Source: Phycisphaerae bacterium (GTDB lineage: Bacteria > Planctomycetota > Phycisphaerae > UBA1845 > Fen-1342). Taken from it: DNA of 64,000 bases. Below are positions 46,186-55,000 of this stretch, piece after piece (the first letter of the stretch is position 1; each line of letters starts with the position of its first letter). The translations under genes were made by a program, and so were the position numbers. A model generated the notes under the pieces. That model ran no database searches and was not told where the DNA came from. It saw only the letters and a program-made list of their open reading frames with translations. The stretch lies in assembly GCA_017999985.1 (NCBI GenBank), contig JAGNKU010000007.1, positions 1-64,000 of the forward strand, given 5' to 3'.

Positions 46186-46536
46186 GTGAGCGACGAAACA
46201 CGAAGACTGGATGTGGAGGTTACCGCGGTTGACGGGGCGCAGGTGGTCCGCGTGCGCGGGGAGGTGGACCTGCAGACGGCGCCGCGGTTGCGTGAGCTGC
46301 TGCTGGCGAGCGCGAAGGGGCTGCGCGACGTGGTGCGCATCGACCTGTCGCAGGTGCCGTACATGGACTCATCCGGGGTGGGGACGATGGTGTTCGTCAA
46401 GCGTGCCATGGAGCGGGCCGGAGCGCGGGTGGTGCTCATCGGCCTGCAGCCCCGGGTGCGCAGCCTGTTCGAGATCACGCACCTCGACAAGTTCTTCACG
46501 ATCGTGAGCACGATCGATGAGGCGGCGGCGCCATGA
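46186..46536 (+). CDS. STAS-domain protein (MlaB-like/anti-sigma antagonist)
   Basis: A 116-residue single STAS domain. VVRIDLSQVPYMDSSGVGTMV holds the conserved DSSG with the phosphorylatable serine. The gene starts with GTG 46186 and overlaps the MlaE permease gene by four bases (ATGA). In Mla transporters a STAS protein, MlaB, binds the ATPase and supports the complex, so a role there is as likely as a role in sigma-factor control. Confidence 0.85.
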   Translation: MSDETRRLDVEVTAVDGAQVVRVRGEVDLQTAPRLRELLLASAKGLRDVVRIDLSQVPYMDSSGVGTMVFVKRAMERAGARVVLIGLQPRVRSLFEITHLDKFFTIVSTIDEAAAP

Positions 46537-47390
46537 ACAGCATCGCGGGGCGTCCACGAGTGCGGGGGCGGCGGACGTGGATCGAGGTTGTGGGAGCCAC
46601 GGTGCGCGGCGGCGTTCTCGCGCTGGGCGACGCCGCGATTTACGTCGGGGGGATCGTGCGCCTGCTGCTGGCGATCGGGCAGCGCGCGGTCCGGGCGCTG
46701 CGTGGCGGCGCCGACCGCATCCGGCTGGAAGCGCTGGTGCAGCAGGCCGTGCGCGTGGGGGTCCGCAGCATCCCGATCATCGTGCTGGTGCAGGTGTTCA
46801 TCGGCATCATTCTGGCGCTGAACATGGCGCCGACGCTGGCGCTGTACGGATCACTGGAGCGGGTGGCCGACATCGTGGCCATTGCCGTCTTTCGCGAGCT
46901 GGGCGCGCTGATCAGCGCGGTGATCCTGAGCGGCTTCGCGGGCGCGTCGATCGCGGCGGAACTGGGGGCGATGGTCGAGGGCGAGGAGATCAAGGCGCTG
47001 CGGGCACACGCGCTCGATCCGATTCGCTTCCTGGTCGTGCCGCGGGTGGTGGCAACGACAGTGATGCTGGTTGGCCTGACCGCGCTGGCCGACGTGGTCG
47101 GCGTCTTCGGCGGCTTTTTGACCGCGGTCTTCGTGCTGGACATCGCGCCGCAGACGTACATTGACGGCACGCGGGCCGCGCTGACGATGGGCGACTATTT
47201 CACCGGCCTGTTCAAATCGGGCGTCTTCGGGGCGATCATCGCCATGCTGGCGTGCTACGAAGGGCTGCACGTCACCGGCGGCGCCGAAGGCGTGGGCCGC
47301 GCGACGACCACGACCGTCGTGAAGAGCATCGTCTGCCTGATTGGAGCCGACTGCATCTTCACGGCCGTCTTCTACGTGCTGGGGTGGTGA
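46533..47390 (+). CDS. MlaE-family ABC transporter permease
   Basis: A 285-residue permease with five or six membrane segments. Characteristic are QVFIGIILALNMAPTL, FRELGALISAVILSGFAGASIAAELGAM and the EExxAL-type motif EGEEIKALRAHALDP. MlaE permeases move phospholipids between the membranes with an ATPase (MlaF) and an MCE protein (MlaD), neither of which is adjacent. The gene is coupled to the STAS gene in front and followed after one base by the RNase HII-like gene. Confidence 0.9.
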   Translation: MNSIAGRPRVRGRRTWIEVVGATVRGGVLALGDAAIYVGGIVRLLLAIGQRAVRALRGGADRIRLEALVQQAVRVGVRSIPIIVLVQVFIGIILALNMAPTLALYGSLERVADIVAIAVFRELGALISAVILSGFAGASIAAELGAMVEGEEIKALRAHALDPIRFLVVPRVVATTVMLVGLTALADVVGVFGGFLTAVFVLDIAPQTYIDGTRAALTMGDYFTGLFKSGVFGAIIAMLACYEGLHVTGGAEGVGRATTTTVVKSIVCLIGADCIFTAVFYVLGW

Positions 47391-47391
47391 C

Positions 47392-48351
47392 GTGCCGCTC
47401 GTGGTCGGTATCGATGAAGCCGGCTATGGACCGTTGCTCGGACCGCTGGTGATGGCGGCCACACTGTGGCGCGTCGCGCCGCGGCGCGTGGACGGCGACT
47501 ACTGGGACTGGCTGGCCACGGCCGTCACCCGGCGGGCGACGCGCGGCGAAGCCCGGCTTCCGGTCGGCGATTCGAAGGAGGTCTTCGCGCGCAAGCGGGG
47601 GATTGCCACGCTGGAACGGACGGTGCTGGCGTTTGCCCGCGCGGCGGGACTGCGCTGGGAGACTGTGGGCGAGTTTCTGGCGGAGCTGGGGTACGCCAGC
47701 CCGCCGCAGGCCGCGTTTCCGTGGTACGAAGACCTCGGGGCGCGCCTGCCGCGCGACCCGACGCGCTCGGCCTTCGAGGGCGCGGCGCGTCGTCTGACCC
47801 AGGCCATGACGGCGGCCGGCGTCGCCTGCTGCGGTCTGCACGCGGAGATCGTGACGGAGGACGCCTTCAACCGCCGGATCGCACAGACCCGCAACAAGGC
47901 GGCGGTGGTGGTCGAGGGCGTTTTGCGGCTGATCGCGTGGGCGGGGCGGTACTGCGGTGACCAGGATCTGTACGTGCGCGTCGATCGGCTCGGTGGCCGG
48001 GCCGACTATCGCGCGGTGCTGATGCACGCGTTTCCGGAGCGGCACGCGCACGTGCTGGCGGTCAGCGACGAATGCAGCCGATACCGGCTGGCGTCTGCCG
48101 TCAACGACTGGCACATCGAGTTCGCGGTGAGCGGCGAGCAGCGGCACCTGCCGATCGCGCTCGCGAGCATGCTGGCGAAGTACGTCCGCGAGGTGCTGAT
48201 GGAGCGGTTCAACGCGTACTGGCAGCGCGTGGCGCCGCAGGTGGCCGCGACGGCGGGGTACTACACGGACGCGCAGCGCTTCCTGGCCGAGATTGGCCCG
48301 CTCGCCGGGCCGCAGAACGTGCCGCTCGAGCGCTTCGTGCGGGCACGCTGA
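47392..48351 (+). CDS. Divergent RNase HII-like protein
   Basis: A 319-residue protein with the RNase H2-type start VVGIDEAGYGPLLGPLVMAA. The catalytic Asp and Glu are kept, but the GRG motif that recognises the RNA-DNA junction is GYG. A third acidic residue may be the Asp in YVRVDRLGGRADY, and the block ASMLAKYVREVLMERF matches the family's AKxxRDxxM with Glu for Asp. It is about 100 residues longer than RNase HII. Start GTG 47392, one base after the permease stop. It may cleave RNA in hybrids, but the changes leave activity open. Confidence 0.75.
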   Translation: MPLVVGIDEAGYGPLLGPLVMAATLWRVAPRRVDGDYWDWLATAVTRRATRGEARLPVGDSKEVFARKRGIATLERTVLAFARAAGLRWETVGEFLAELGYASPPQAAFPWYEDLGARLPRDPTRSAFEGAARRLTQAMTAAGVACCGLHAEIVTEDAFNRRIAQTRNKAAVVVEGVLRLIAWAGRYCGDQDLYVRVDRLGGRADYRAVLMHAFPERHAHVLAVSDECSRYRLASAVNDWHIEFAVSGEQRHLPIALASMLAKYVREVLMERFNAYWQRVAPQVAATAGYYTDAQRFLAEIGPLAGPQNVPLERFVRAR

Positions 48352-48373: not shown

Positions 48374-51300
48374 ATGGACCTTGCGTACACGGGTTGGCGC
48401 CACTTGGTTGTGGTGATCATGGTGGGGCTGATCGGGCTGGCGGCGCGACCGACGCGCGGCCAGTCACCCGACGCAGCCGCGGGGCGCGCGTGGGCGCCCG
48501 AAGTGCAGGCGGCGCTGGCGGCCTACCGCGCGGACGATCTCGCGACGGCCGCGCAGATCAGCCGGCAGGTGCTCACGCAGGCGCGGGACCCGGCGGCGCA
48601 GCGCGATGCGGCCGTCGTGCGCGCCATGACTCTCCTACGCATGCCGGCGCGGGCAGACCGCAACGAAGGACGGGCCCGCCTGGAGCAACTGGGCGCCGAG
48701 GATCCGACCCTGCGCGACGAGCCGGAGTGCAACCTGGCCTTCGGCATCGCGCTGGGCGCGCTGACCGAGACCGCTGACGCACTGGACGCGCTCGACCGGG
48801 CAGTGACGGGGTTCGCGGCGCGCGGGGAGTTGGCGCGCCAGGCCGCGGCGCTGGTAGCGCTGGCCGAAACCTGGGCGCAGCACAACGAATGGGAGCACAC
48901 GCTGCCGCGCTTCGGCGTACCCCGGCTGCCCGATCGCGACGCTGCGGACCAGGCGCGGCGCGCGCGGATCGCGGCGGCGCGCGCGGCGGCGGCGATCCTG
49001 CCGGGGCAGGCCGAGGCCGTGGACCGGATCGACGCGATCCTGGCGCAGTACCTGCTGGACTGCGGCGACCCGGACGGGACCGGGCGGGCGCTGCTGGAGC
49101 AGTTGAGCGGCCGGGATGCGTGGAACGCGGCGGCGGCGGACGCCGCTTGGCGCCTCGCGCAACACTGCGAGACGCTGGATCAATGGGCGGAGGCATTGGC
49201 CCTGTACGAAAGGCTGCGGCGGGACTGGCACGGCGAGCCCGCTCGCCGGGCCGAAGAGCGCATCGCGGACATCACGCGGCCGCAAATCCTGCTGCACGCT
49301 CCGGCGGCCGTGCGCAACGGGGAGCCGCTGCGCCCGCGCCTGCAGGTACGCGGCGTGCCCCGCGTGCAACTCGAATTGCGGCAGGTGGACGCGGAGGCAT
49401 GGTTGAACAGCGCCCGGACACGCCGGAGCGAAGCGCTGCTGCCGGAGTCCGGCTCGGTGCGGGTGGCGCGTGACGTGGAGACGAACGCGGAGGCCACGTA
49501 TGCGTGGTGGGATTCGGCGTTGACGGGGACGGAGCTGGCATGCAGCGCGGAGTCGGGTGCCTACGTGCTGCTGGCACGCGGGCGCGATGCTGCCGGGCGC
49601 GAAATCGTGGTGAAGCGCCTGGTGACCGTCAGCGATCTGCGGGTGGCCGCCTGCGTCGGTCCGCACACGGCGGTGCTGTGGGCGCCCGCGTCTGACGAAG
49701 CCGGCGCCGACGAGCCCGTGACGGCGCAATTCTGGATGGACCAGTCGTTCACGCCGACGGATGTACGCTTCGAGGGCGACGTGGCCCGGTTTGCGCTGCC
49801 GGCGGAGGCGCACGTGATGCGCGACAAGGGCTGGGTATGCCTGGTCCGGCGCGGCACACAGCTAGCGGTTTGCCGGGGCCGCGTGCCGGTGCCGGGCGCG
49901 GAGGGCACTCCGCGCATCGCGCTCCTGGCAGCGCCGCCCACGCCGGCGGTGGGAGCGTCACTGTACGTGGCCGGTCTGCTCTTTCCCGGCAATGAAGTGG
50001 GGGTACCGCTGCCGGCGGGCACGGCAATTGATCTGGAGGTGCGCGATGCGCTCGAGGCCGTGCAGCGACAGCAGCGTATCGATGCACTGGCGGGCGCGGC
50101 GCTCGCCGCGGAATTTCCGGTGACCGCGGACCTGGCCGCGAAACACCTGCGTGTGCTGCCGCGGCTGGTCGGGCAGAGCGTGGGCAACCTCTTCGGGCGC
50201 GCGACGGTCAGCATTCCGCCGCTGGAGCTGGCGCGTTTTCGCGTCCGCGTGGACATGCCCACCTGGCTGGCGGCGGACGCGGCCGTGCTCACCGGCGCCG
50301 TCGTCGGCGAATACCCGTGGGGCACAGCGACGTCGCAGGCGCCGGTCACGTGCGAGTTCCGCGCGCGACGCCTGCCGGACGCGGGCGAGAACAGCGCGCC
50401 GATGACCGGCGCATTCGCGGTGCGCGACGGGCGGCTGGACCTGGCCGGTCGCATGCCGTTCGAGGTGTCGCGCGCGGAATTCGGACTGCCGGAGGGACCG
50501 CTGGCGATCACCGTGACCGCCACGGTCCGGAGCTGGGATGGGCGCGAGGGCGTCGGCAAGGCGGAGGTGCTCGTGGCGGCGCAACGACGCCACGCGTGGC
50601 TGACGGTGGCGCCGGGGGACTGGACCGTCGGCAGCGAGATCCGGTTCAACGTCGGCTGGTTCGAGCCCGGCGGTGTGGCGGTCGCGCGCTTCCCGGAAGT
50701 GGTCGTGCAGCACGGCGGCGCGCCGGTCGCGCGACTACCGCTGCAGGCCACCGCCGGCGGACTGGTCAGCGCGCCGTGGCGGCCGTCCGCCCCCGGGGAC
50801 TACGCGGCCATCGCAACGCTGGCGGTGGTCGGCGACGAGCCGATCCCGCTGCAGACCACGTTCCGCGTCGGTGACGCCGCGACAGCCCAACCGAACAGCG
50901 GGACCGGTGTGCGGCTCGCGGCGCATTTTAGCCGGGTGGATGAAGACGCGGTGGTGCGCTTCACGCTTACTGGTGAGGCGGACTGCCCGCTGCTGGTGCT
51001 GCTGGCCGACAGCGAGCCCCATGCCGCCTGGAGTGTCGGCAAGCCGGGCCAGGCGGAGCACGCCGGGCACTTCCTGTTGCAGCGCGAACCGGCGTTGGGC
51101 TTGCGCACCGTACTGCTCGCCGCCCGCCCGAAGGGTTTTGAGATTCTCGCGGCACCTTACGTGGCGGCTGATCCGGAGCGCATGCTCCGCCTGGACCTCG
51201 CGGTTGCGTCGCCGGATGCCTGGCCCGGCACGTCCGCGGAGGTCACGGCCCGCTGCGCGGCGACGCCCGCGCCGCCGCCCGGGACGACGCTCATGGCGCG

Positions 51301-52474
51301 GCTGATCGCCGCAGAAGATGTCGGCTACGAGAACCGGCGTGTTGCCACCCGCGACGTGGACGACACCTGGGCGGACCTGGGCCTGTCCATCGTCGGCTCG
51401 GCGGGCGACACGGCGACGGTGGCAAAGCCCGATGACTTGCGGCCGGCGTTGGAGGCCGGCCTTGGCGCGCTCTGGCCCGCACTCACCGAAGGCGTGACGC
51501 TCTGGACCACCAGCGTCGAACTCGGCGAGGACGCTGCGACCACCCTGTCCGTGCCGCTGCCGGCGACGCCCGGGCTGTACAAGTTGATCGCCATGGCGCG
51601 GACACCGGCGGGGACGGTCGCAACCGCGCAGACTCTACTGGATGCGCGCCGCGGCGTGCGGCTGGCGCTGGATGTGCCGGCGCGCTTGACGCTCGGCGAC
51701 CGCTCGCAGGTGGCGGTGCTGGTCGAGAACGGCTACGCCGAGCCCGTCCACGTGCAGGTGCGCTGCACGAGCGACGGCGGGCTACATGCGGAGACGGCGC
51801 GCGTGGCGCTCGAAGGTCACGCCGCGCAGCCGGCGCCGGTAAACACGGCGGCGAGCGTCGAGCTGCCCGCCCTGGGCCGCGCGTGGCTCCATGTGGATGT
51901 GGAAGCCGCGCGGGCCGGCGTGGGCGAGGTCCAAGCGGAAGTCACGGCGCGCGAGCAGCGGCAGACCGCGCGCACGCCGTACGAGGTGCTTCCGGCAGAC
52001 GAGCCCCCCACGGAGGCGCGGCTGCGCATCCAGCGCACCATCATGCTCTGGGTACCCCCACCGGGGGCGGAACACGTGCACACCGCCGCGCATCCGCACT
52101 GGCGCTGGGTGCCGCTGGAGTCCACGGCGCGCCTGGTGCCCGGGCAGTCCCTCAAGGTCGTGGAGGAACTGGATGTCACGGCCCCGGAGGCGGAGCTGCT
52201 GTGGACGCAGCGCGTACCGCCGACATGCCACCCGGTGACCGGCGCAATGACCAAGCCGACGCAGATTGGCAGCCCACGACCGGACGTCACCGACGCGCTG
52301 GTGTTCGATGTGCCGGGCCTGAAGCCGGGGCGCAATCGGCACGAGTACTACCTCGTCGTGGTGCGGCCCGGAGCCTGCGTGCTGCCCGCACCGCAGTTAC
52401 AGCGCGGCACCGAGGTACTGAGCAGCACCGTGACGCCACCGGAGCTGTGGCTGGTCGCACCGGCGGAGCGTTGA
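48374..52474 (+). CDS. Large secreted macroglobulin-like protein with TPR N-terminus
   Basis: A 1366-residue exported protein: signal peptide (about 1-35), TPR-like helical repeats (to about residue 320), then a long series of beta-sandwich domains. The part around VTLWTTSVELGEDAATTLSVPLPATPGLYKL and RLTLGDRSQVAVLVENGYAE resembles the A2M and MG domains of bacterial alpha-2-macroglobulins. The C-terminus (LKPGRNRHEYYLVVVRPGACVLPAPQLQ) resembles their last MG domain. No CxEQ thioester motif and no helical thioester domain were found. ATG 48374 has GGAG 5 bases upstream. Role: probably envelope defence or protein binding, not covalent trapping. Confidence 0.7.
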   Translation: MDLAYTGWRHLVVVIMVGLIGLAARPTRGQSPDAAAGRAWAPEVQAALAAYRADDLATAAQISRQVLTQARDPAAQRDAAVVRAMTLLRMPARADRNEGRARLEQLGAEDPTLRDEPECNLAFGIALGALTETADALDALDRAVTGFAARGELARQAAALVALAETWAQHNEWEHTLPRFGVPRLPDRDAADQARRARIAAARAAAAILPGQAEAVDRIDAILAQYLLDCGDPDGTGRALLEQLSGRDAWNAAAADAAWRLAQHCETLDQWAEALALYERLRRDWHGEPARRAEERIADITRPQILLHAPAAVRNGEPLRPRLQVRGVPRVQLELRQVDAEAWLNSARTRRSEALLPESGSVRVARDVETNAEATYAWWDSALTGTELACSAESGAYVLLARGRDAAGREIVVKRLVTVSDLRVAACVGPHTAVLWAPASDEAGADEPVTAQFWMDQSFTPTDVRFEGDVARFALPAEAHVMRDKGWVCLVRRGTQLAVCRGRVPVPGAEGTPRIALLAAPPTPAVGASLYVAGLLFPGNEVGVPLPAGTAIDLEVRDALEAVQRQQRIDALAGAALAAEFPVTADLAAKHLRVLPRLVGQSVGNLFGRATVSIPPLELARFRVRVDMPTWLAADAAVLTGAVVGEYPWGTATSQAPVTCEFRARRLPDAGENSAPMTGAFAVRDGRLDLAGRMPFEVSRAEFGLPEGPLAITVTATVRSWDGREGVGKAEVLVAAQRRHAWLTVAPGDWTVGSEIRFNVGWFEPGGVAVARFPEVVVQHGGAPVARLPLQATAGGLVSAPWRPSAPGDYAAIATLAVVGDEPIPLQTTFRVGDAATAQPNSGTGVRLAAHFSRVDEDAVVRFTLTGEADCPLLVLLADSEPHAAWSVGKPGQAEHAGHFLLQREPALGLRTVLLAARPKGFEILAAPYVAADPERMLRLDLAVASPDAWPGTSAEVTARCAATPAPPPGTTLMARLIAAEDVGYENRRVATRDVDDTWADLGLSIVGSAGDTATVAKPDDLRPALEAGLGALWPALTEGVTLWTTSVELGEDAATTLSVPLPATPGLYKLIAMARTPAGTVATAQTLLDARRGVRLALDVPARLTLGDRSQVAVLVENGYAEPVHVQVRCTSDGGLHAETARVALEGHAAQPAPVNTAASVELPALGRAWLHVDVEAARAGVGEVQAEVTAREQRQTARTPYEVLPADEPPTEARLRIQRTIMLWVPPPGAEHVHTAAHPHWRWVPLESTARLVPGQSLKVVEELDVTAPEAELLWTQRVPPTCHPVTGAMTKPTQIGSPRPDVTDALVFDVPGLKPGRNRHEYYLVVVRPGACVLPAPQLQRGTEVLSSTVTPPELWLVAPAER

Positions 52475-52482
52475 GCGCGGCA

Positions 52483-54672
52483 TCAGAGCGCGCGTCGCAG
52501 GCGCAGCGAATTGGCGACGACGGTCAGCGAACTGCACATCATCGCGGCCGTGGCCAGCGCTGGGGGCAGCGGCGTGAGCATGGCCACCGGCAGCATGACC
52601 AGGTTGTACGCCACGGCCCAGAAAAGATTCTGCTTCATGATCCGCGCGCTGCGGCGCGACACGCGGATCGCGTCCGCGATGCCGTGCGGCGCGTGACCGA
52701 CCAGGCAAATGTCCGCCGCCGCGCGGGCCACGTCAGCGCCTGTGCCAATGGCGATGCCCACGCTCGCGGCGGCCAGCGCGGGCGCATCGTTGATGCCGTC
52801 ACCGACCATTGCCACGTGTCCATGTTGCGCGGCCTGCGCGCGCACACGCGACAATTTCTGCTGCGGCGTCAGTTCGGCCTCGTACGCGTCCACGCCGAGT
52901 TGCTCCGCGACCCGGCGCACCACCGCCGCACGGTCGCCGGAGAGGATGCGCGTCCGGATGCCGAGACGGCGGAGCGCGTCGAGGGCGGCCGTGGCCTCGG
53001 GGTGGAGCGGATCGGAAAAGGCGAAGAGGGCGGCGGGGCGACCGTTGAGCGCGGCCCAGACCACGCTGCAGCCCGTGTCCGCCAGCGCGTCGGCCTGCGG
53101 GGCGTGGGCCGCGGTCTGGATCCTGTGTTCGTCGAGCCACGCGGCGCTGCCCACCAGCACCTGGTCACCGCCAACCTGGCCGCGCAGGCCGGCACCAGGT
53201 CGCGCGTGCAGGTCCTGCGCGGGCGGCAGGTTCAGGCCGCGCTCCCGCACCGCGCGCACCAGGGCCTGGGCCAGCGGGTGCGCGCTGAGCTGTTCCAGCC
53301 CGGCCGCCGCCTGCAACACCGTGGCTTCATCGGCGCGGTCCAGCAATTGCACGCGGGCGAGGGCCGGCTGTCCAAGCGTCAGCGTGCCAGTTTTGTCGAG
53401 CAGCACCTCGCGAACCTGGCCGGCCGCCTCCAGGGCCGAGGCGTTGCGCACCAGGATTCCGTGCTCGGCGGCCCGCGTCGTGCCCACCAGGACGGCCGTC
53501 GGGATGGCCAGCCCCAAGGCACACGGACACGCGACGACCAGGACGGCGATCATCCGTTGCACGGCCGGCAGCAGCGCGGCGTCAGCGAGCCACAGCCAGC
53601 CGGCCAGCGTCGCCAGCGCCAGACCGAGCACGACGGGCACGAACACGGCTGCCGCGCGATCGGCGAAACGCTGCCAGGGCGGTTTGGTCGCTTGTGCGTC
53701 CGCGACCAGCTGCGCGATGCGCGCCGCGGCGCTGGTGCGACCGGTGGCGGTCGCGCGCAGCTCGAACAGGCCGTCGACCACTTCGGTGCCCCCGTAGACC
53801 GTTTCCCCGGCAGCGCGCTCGACAGGCAAGGCCTCACCCGTCAGCATGGCCTCGTTGAGTGTGCCGCGACCGGACACGATTTCGCCATCGACCGGCACGA
53901 GCGTCTGGGCGCCAACGCGCAGACGATCGCCCGGCTGCACGGCGTCGATCGGCACGGTTTCGGTGCGGCCATCCACGACGCGCTGCGCGGCGCGCGGGAT
54001 GCGCGCCATGAGACGCTCCAGCGCCGACGCCGCACGCCCACGCGCCCGGGCTTCCAGGTGTTTCCCGAGCGCGACGAACCATACGATCATCACGGCGGCA
54101 TCGAACAGGATCAGCTCATGGTTGTGCGTGGCAACGCCGATCACGCCACTTAGCAGGGCCGTCAGGGCGCCGAGACTCACGAGCAGGTCCATGTTCGCCT
54201 GACGCGCGGCCAGGGCCCGCAGGGCGCCGACCAGGATCGGGCCGGCCGCCGTCACAAAGACCCCCACAGTGAACACCGCAAGCACCAGCCAACCCGCGCG
54301 GGACGGGTGCAGCGTGGGCACGACGTGGACGGCGACGACCGGCAGGCCCAGGACGGTGGCCGCCAGCAACCGCCACTGCTGCCCGCGCAGGCGGCGCTGC
54401 CGCTCGTCGGCGGACGCAGCCGCGGGTCCGCCGGGCGTCGCGATCCAGGCCTGATAACCCGCGCGCGACACGGCCGCGAGCAGGGCCTCCGCCGGCGGGG
54501 GCGCGGCGGCGGCGAGGATCACAGTTGCGTGCGCAGTGGCGAGGTTGACGCTGGCGGAGGCCACGCCGGGCACCGTGGTAAGGGCTTTCTCGACCGCGGC
54601 GATGCAACCGGCGCAGTGCAGCCCGCCGAGTTCCAGTTCGACGCGTCCAGGGGTGTTGTCCGACGATGACAT
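52483..54672 (-). CDS. copA: Copper-translocating P1B-type ATPase
   Basis: A 729-residue pump with one N-terminal heavy-metal domain (LGGLHCAGCIAAVEKAL), a transmembrane CPC motif (VACPCALGLAIPTA), TGEALPVE actuator loop, DKTGTLT phosphorylation site, SAHPLAQAL (HP motif) and GDGINDAPAL. The pattern is that of Cu(I) exporters (CopA/CtpA). The final membrane helices contain AYNLVMLPVAM, typical of P1B-1. ATG 54672 starts the protein just before the metal domain. It is divergent from the secretin gene and no copper regulator gene is adjacent. Confidence 0.9.
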   Translation of the reverse strand: MSSSDNTPGRVELELGGLHCAGCIAAVEKALTTVPGVASASVNLATAHATVILAAAAPPPAEALLAAVSRAGYQAWIATPGGPAAASADERQRRLRGQQWRLLAATVLGLPVVAVHVVPTLHPSRAGWLVLAVFTVGVFVTAAGPILVGALRALAARQANMDLLVSLGALTALLSGVIGVATHNHELILFDAAVMIVWFVALGKHLEARARGRAASALERLMARIPRAAQRVVDGRTETVPIDAVQPGDRLRVGAQTLVPVDGEIVSGRGTLNEAMLTGEALPVERAAGETVYGGTEVVDGLFELRATATGRTSAAARIAQLVADAQATKPPWQRFADRAAAVFVPVVLGLALATLAGWLWLADAALLPAVQRMIAVLVVACPCALGLAIPTAVLVGTTRAAEHGILVRNASALEAAGQVREVLLDKTGTLTLGQPALARVQLLDRADEATVLQAAAGLEQLSAHPLAQALVRAVRERGLNLPPAQDLHARPGAGLRGQVGGDQVLVGSAAWLDEHRIQTAAHAPQADALADTGCSVVWAALNGRPAALFAFSDPLHPEATAALDALRRLGIRTRILSGDRAAVVRRVAEQLGVDAYEAELTPQQKLSRVRAQAAQHGHVAMVGDGINDAPALAAASVGIAIGTGADVARAAADICLVGHAPHGIADAIRVSRRSARIMKQNLFWAVAYNLVMLPVAMLTPLPPALATAAMMCSSLTVVANSLRLRRAL

Positions 54673-55000
54673 GCATGAATCATAGTATGGCACCGTCCAG
54701 GGATTGGCATGGCGGGAATCCGTCCCGGGAGGCGGTCGAGCCGCCAAGCCCGCGGGGGCGACGGCCGGGCGTCAAGGCGACTCGAAAACGCGGTTGCGTC
54801 GGTGGGGGTCGGGGGCTAAACTGCCGCGCGTATGTTGTATGGGGCGCCCATACTCGGCTTCATAAGTTCATCCCTCTCGACCGGTGTGAGTGATGCGGTG
54901 AGTGTGGATGGCCGGACGGCGTGTGCGCGCGTACGCCGCCGCGGCAGGCCGACGAGTTCGGACTAGCGGGCTCGACGTGCCGGGTTCGAAGGAGATCCGG
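54673..55000. other. Divergent region between copA and the secretin gene
   Basis: 328 bp without a protein-like frame. It contains a perfect dyad at 54837-54853 roughly midway between the two starts, and it must include both promoters, which I could not place with confidence. Confidence 0.5.
54837..54853. promoter_or_regulatory. Perfect dyad GTATGGG-GCG-CCCATAC
   Basis: A 7-bp perfect inverted repeat with a 3-base spacer, 165 bp before copA and 148 bp before the secretin. It is a good candidate for a dimeric regulator. It has the half-sites of CsoR operators in reversed order, so it is not a standard CsoR site. Confidence 0.5.

Follow-up and report, generated by a model that had tools for sequence, protein, structure and literature searches.

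Alpha-2-macroglobulins are protease traps and belong with the complement proteins to a family whose hallmark is the thioester domain (TED). What, then, is a large macroglobulin-like protein from which this domain appears to be missing? We pursued this question at a locus in a 64,000-nucleotide stretch (the window, meaning all of the DNA analysed here) of a Phycisphaerae genome (31 contigs, 5.23 Mb in total). The gene (48374..52474, plus strand, as are all features within it) is an intact open reading frame that begins with ATG and translates into 1366 residues plus a stop, and its orthologues can be aligned across nearly the full length. A putative Sec signal peptide without a lipobox cysteine, judged by eye, occupies residues 1-29 (48374..48460), and the window protein is probably exported.

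A preliminary description had recognised MG- and A2M-like segments and an MG10-like C-terminus in this protein, and both were confirmed by profile searches. Pfam A2M (PF00207) matches residues 1043-1130 (51500..51763), slightly below the cut-off of 21 in a protein scan (20.5 bits, E 4.5e-4) and above the curated cut-off, at the identical place, in a genome search (25.8 bits). The window protein matched no Pfam domain besides A2M and nothing in NCBIfam, and phmmer with this protein alone found no match among solved structures; a family profile was required, which retrieved E. coli YfhM (4rtd, E 3.1e-10). When 18 members of a divergent alignment (A1, whose 17 other rows are 23-44% identical to the window protein) were scanned singly, bMG10 was found in seven, A2M in five and MG2 in three (E ≤0.1), and weak TPR matches occurred in some. 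Profile-profile alignment by hhalign of the 24 family rows with ten TED-bearing alpha-2-macroglobulins (nine of the same order and G291 of the class) paired residues 41-1207 continuously with residues 28-1274 of G050 (probability 100, E 8.4e-58), and, for the C-terminal parts, residues 1181-1344 with about 1674-1852 of the bMG10-bearing relatives (E 1.7e-7). The chain of MG domains with A2M and bMG10 homology that marks the superfamily is thus present in the window protein. The same alignment bears on the helical N-terminus, a TPR-type solenoid of 14 helices in the model (residues 42-300, 48497..49273), which had been taken for an addition: since TED-bearing relatives possess a homologous region (the hhalign match starts at residue 41, and TPR matches occur in the TED-bearing relatives P0004 and P0005), it was not added in the window lineage.

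In AlphaFold models, residues 24-520 (mean pLDDT 85.4) comprise the 14 helices and, after them, beta domains, while residues 300-1366, modelled from eight sequences (mean pLDDT 77.4, pTM 0.58), are nearly all beta; helices are few and short there, and none form a toroid. The best four Foldseek hits were A2Ms of E. coli and Salmonella (E 3e-37 to 7e-35, TM-scores 0.28-0.51, rmsd 14-21), and VIA-align aligned 840 residues to the Salmonella protein (4u4j; Z 17.8, rmsd 8.6), 741 to that of E. coli (5a42; Z 17.2, rmsd 8.3) and 237, spread across a 634-residue stretch, to 4ziu, which runs from MG7 to the C-terminus (Z 17.9, rmsd 3.1, model residues 795-1065); the MG chain also matched 4u48 in fold. 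Single domains of the model appear to match A2Ms well and their arrangement is unsure, since with whole-chain rmsd values this large and the TM-scores given above it is not established. The chain of macroglobulin beta-sandwiches (residues 303-982, 49280..51319), delimited by the model, the fold matches and hhalign, extends up to the equivalent of the bait-region domain. It leads into a bait-like loop (residues 983-1030, 51320..51463) of variable sequence and lowest model confidence (pLDDT below 50 mostly at residues 983-1000 and 1017-1030), which by alignment and AlphaFold lies where the bait region would be expected. Conservation in that part of the family alignment is among the lowest at residues 991-1035, and the stretch 982-1039 measures 50-73 residues in the 22 rows having it, the variable region at this place in the relatives measuring 82-107 residues (n = 10). 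Low conservation fits both a bait that has been kept and a simple linker, and the loop may be either.

The absence of a CxEQ motif and of a helical thioester domain, the most consequential claim of the preliminary description, held up. CxEQ was found by motif scan in 0 of the 24 family rows and not in the orthologue G011 either, a TED profile built from relatives scored -0.3 bits on the window protein, and the model has no helical toroid. The A2M-like part, completed by the remainder of an MG9-type domain (residues 1131-1207, 51764..51994; paired by hhalign with about 1201-1274 of G050), is indeed joined almost directly to the C-terminal MG domain (MG10/CTMG, 52016..52471; hhalign and bMG10 matches), with a short variable linker at the junction (51995..52015) in the family rows. 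Here the two hhalign halves meet, and nothing in the window protein corresponds to the 400-430 residues of the relatives (from about 1275 to 1674-1710) that include a TED with CTEQ or CVEQ; the halves overlap at 1181-1207, and the border of the junction is therefore uncertain by some tens of residues. As read from these borders and from the domain order of ECAM (PMC4498604), the CUB domain would have been lost together with the TED. In the family alignment the junction is short and TED-less in the 22 family rows or orthologues that span it, from 20 genera, and a G001 fragment also crosses it, in 300 codons, while G005 and G021 end before it. The best family row against the TED profile, among the matches listed (20 of 24), was G010 (5.5 bits, E 0.011), and its junction is short. 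Thus, of the two outcomes that would have spoken against the description, the lack of a significant MG/A2M match and the detection of a TED, neither was observed, and the proposed origin of the window protein from a bacterial alpha-2-macroglobulin that lost its TED is strongly supported by hhalign on both sides of the gap, by the TED profile and by the fold matches. The roles that the description offered, binding proteases non-covalently or serving a structural purpose, are compatible with these results.

Outside the family, CxEQ was present in 15 of the 16 loci read (the other, G099, stops at a contig end before that place) and also in G030 and G050. A phylum scan of the spacing between A2M and bMG10, covering at least 82 same-contig pairs transcribed by eye from the matches listed, gave gaps of 443-624 residues in 81 of 82 pairs among these matches. 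A gap of 288 residues in G572:C20 was considered as a second TED loss and rejected, as this protein carries a CTEQ TED; beyond the pairs covered, further TED losses may exist. In G572 (L103, 654 aa on the minus strand) the part preceding CTEQ appears to be shortened, and the TED was matched as two separate pieces.

The C-terminal MG domain is of interest in this context because, in the portion of the E. coli A2M study drawn on here (PMC4498604), its RDDR and EXMY residues bind the TED in the protein not yet activated and the cut bait once activation has occurred, the TED being part of one of two closing arms and the MY-containing motif docking the cut bait. Within the last 200 residues, an MY motif was found in 16 of 20 TED-bearing relatives, proteins selected for having CxEQ, and the remaining four frames were judged to end before or leave the C-terminal domain. 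G011 and all 24 family rows lack it; 22 of these rows extend to the C-terminus. The scan was first made over 75 residues for family rows and 200 for relatives, and rerunning it at 200 for both gave the identical result.

G011 carries about 340 additional residues at the junction, and this insert matches the relatives' TED profile (33.1 bits, E 1.8e-12 for one sequence; hhalign probability 96) without containing CxEQ. Pfam finds nothing in the G011 protein, whose TED therefore rests on the profile built in this analysis; as judged from its sequence, G011 keeps a degenerate TED. A quick tree with SH-aLRT support only, calculated from 31 rows (22 TED-less, G011 and 8 TED-bearing; G005, the second G026 piece and short pieces of G001, G019 and G021 outside the family set were left out), split the family from the TED-bearing relatives with support 100, the family forming one deep branch. 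In the best tree G011 is nested within the family beside G015, so that the TED-less state requires two changes, yet a tree that places all TED-less rows in one clade, 6.5 log units worse, is not rejected (p-AU 0.32). One TED loss or two both fit, and a regained TED is likewise possible. Decay of the thioester would have come first, leaving a TED like that of G011 before the domain was lost.

How widely is this form kept? Matches were obtained in 28 of 61 genomes by protein search and in 48 of the 114 genomes of the order by a profile search. The gene occurs in 26 of the 27 genomes of the window's own Phycisphaerae family, in some in pieces only; outside this family the profile hit only separate stretches, mostly within long frames, also among 397 genomes of the class. 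Seven named loci among the relatives come from MAGs of Phycisphaerae, Phycisphaerales or Planctomycetota. A dN/dS of 0.29 over 593 codons in a single pair (G016/G026) indicates purifying selection in one close orthologue pair. Because it is kept across one planctomycete family, the TED-less form would have to work without the covalent trap. A2M matches above 40 bits occur in 9 of the 27 family genomes and, by this count, no A2M besides the TED-less protein is detected in 17 of the 26 genomes holding the gene; matches to Pfam TED_complement (9 of 27 genomes, 8 above cut-off) fall in a partly different set. The window's genome encodes a second A2M of 2020 residues with a CTEQ-bearing TED (L033, contig C4, 2518-8577, minus strand), which can serve as an internal control.

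Genes for STAS, MlaE permease and RNase HII-like proteins lie directly upstream on the same strand as the macroglobulin gene (46186-48351; Pfam), and downstream a P-type (heavy-metal) ATPase gene on the minus strand (52483-54747; neighbour scan) separates it from a secretin gene (PF00263, 54902-58012; Pfam). Among nine neighbouring frames searched against Pfam, five encode proteins of other kinds and four gave no match. In tblastn comparisons of 17 loci with unequal flanks, loci with a short flank being scored as misses, 11 loci have the RNase HII-like gene immediately upstream and 8 have a secretin nearby; in G014 and G026 the P-type ATPase occupies the same position.

The window protein retains its helical N-terminus, MG chain, C-terminal MG domain and a variable, bait-like loop, and the components required for covalent capture are absent. 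We favour, as the probable reading, a TPR-bearing planctomycete A2M whose CUB-TED module has been excised and whose function would not involve covalent capture, an envelope scaffold being the likeliest role. Going by its domain content, the exported protein would function in the absence of such capture, its solenoid and MG ring binding partner proteins non-covalently; since the exposed loop may remain cleavable, a residual non-covalent response to proteases is possible. We would rank a putative envelope scaffold above a non-covalent trap like the Type II A2M MagD, in which cleavage of the loop would close the MG ring without a thioester. The latter is unlikely on present evidence, albeit the most serious of the alternatives: MagD, in the part of the report considered here (PMC5764988), still holds protease non-covalently without CxEQ, and loop 983-1030 is variable, modelled with low confidence and located at the bait-region place, but the TED arm and the MY bait-docking motif described for E. 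coli A2M in the portion cited (PMC4498604) are both gone here. Moreover, MagD acts with operon partners according to the same part of its report (PMC5764988), whereas the neighbours here are the five of other kinds and the four without Pfam match, and the example of MagD does not show that holding works without a TED. Rather more speculative, and in our estimation doubtful, is a third macroglobulin class in which CUB-TED was deleted after thioester decay and the bait loop would control a thioester-free ring coupled to the envelope (hence the secretin and Mla-type neighbours).

The protein could instead be an ancestral form that predates insertion of the TED and never bore one. Since the TED is a module that was inserted, one can conceive of a precursor without it, and the family is one deep branch; however, G011 has a decayed TED at the same place, CUB is missing besides the TED as the borders are read, and CxEQ is present in nearly all loci read outside the family (15 of 16, and in G030 and G050), which makes such an origin improbable. 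Even less credible is a split system in which the TED would come in trans from another protein. Some of the TED_complement matches in the nine family genomes do lie in frames of 344-1143 aa, but all but one of the strongest fall in frames of 1692-2174 aa, and 18 of the 27 genomes are without a match while the TED-less gene is present in 26; these counts come from an insensitive profile, which finds nothing in G018 and G019 despite their long A2M frames. Finally, G026 and G019 are split over two frames and G016 over two contigs, as one would expect if the short form were an assembly error or a decaying pseudogene, but the identical short junction recurs in the 22 rows from 20 genera, mostly in one open frame, and the dN/dS of 0.29 in one pair points the same way, so that this reading is already contradicted and can in practice be set aside. 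The thioester-free scaffold derived from an alpha-2-macroglobulin hence remains our preferred reading.

Type II bacterial alpha-2-macroglobulins, of which E. coli YfaS is one, keep the TED fold. The window protein resembles a Type II protein such as MagD of P. aeruginosa in being without a CxEQ thioester and differs in the deletion of the CUB-TED module, and with it of the TED fold. With the Type I proteins E. coli YfhM/ECAM and Salmonella SaA2M it shares the MG chain, the bait-region position and the C-terminal MG domain (Z 17-18), but unlike these it is without TED, CxEQ and MY, and has a helical N-terminus and, by eye, no lipobox; neither CxEQ nor a TED connected through CUB was found, the absence of CUB being a reading of the borders. 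Among the papers listed, with subscription papers and preprints outside the search, no report of a TED-less bacterial A2M was found. The bacterial kinds described in the portion of the literature cited here are Type I, with a thioester, and Type II, without CxEQ and with the bait region kept (PMC5764988). The six-gene mag operon of MagD was not found around the window gene, as judged by the Pfam matches of its neighbours. P0004 and P0005, TPR macroglobulins from the same order, have a homologous helical N-terminus and MG chain and, unlike the window protein, carry CTEQ, a TED and the MY motif. Read in this way as a thioester-independent A2M variant, the window protein belongs to a natural TED-free lineage that includes one orthologue with a decaying TED. 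Such a lineage allows the contribution of MG ring and bait alone to be addressed directly, a question that is open for the Type II A2Ms too.
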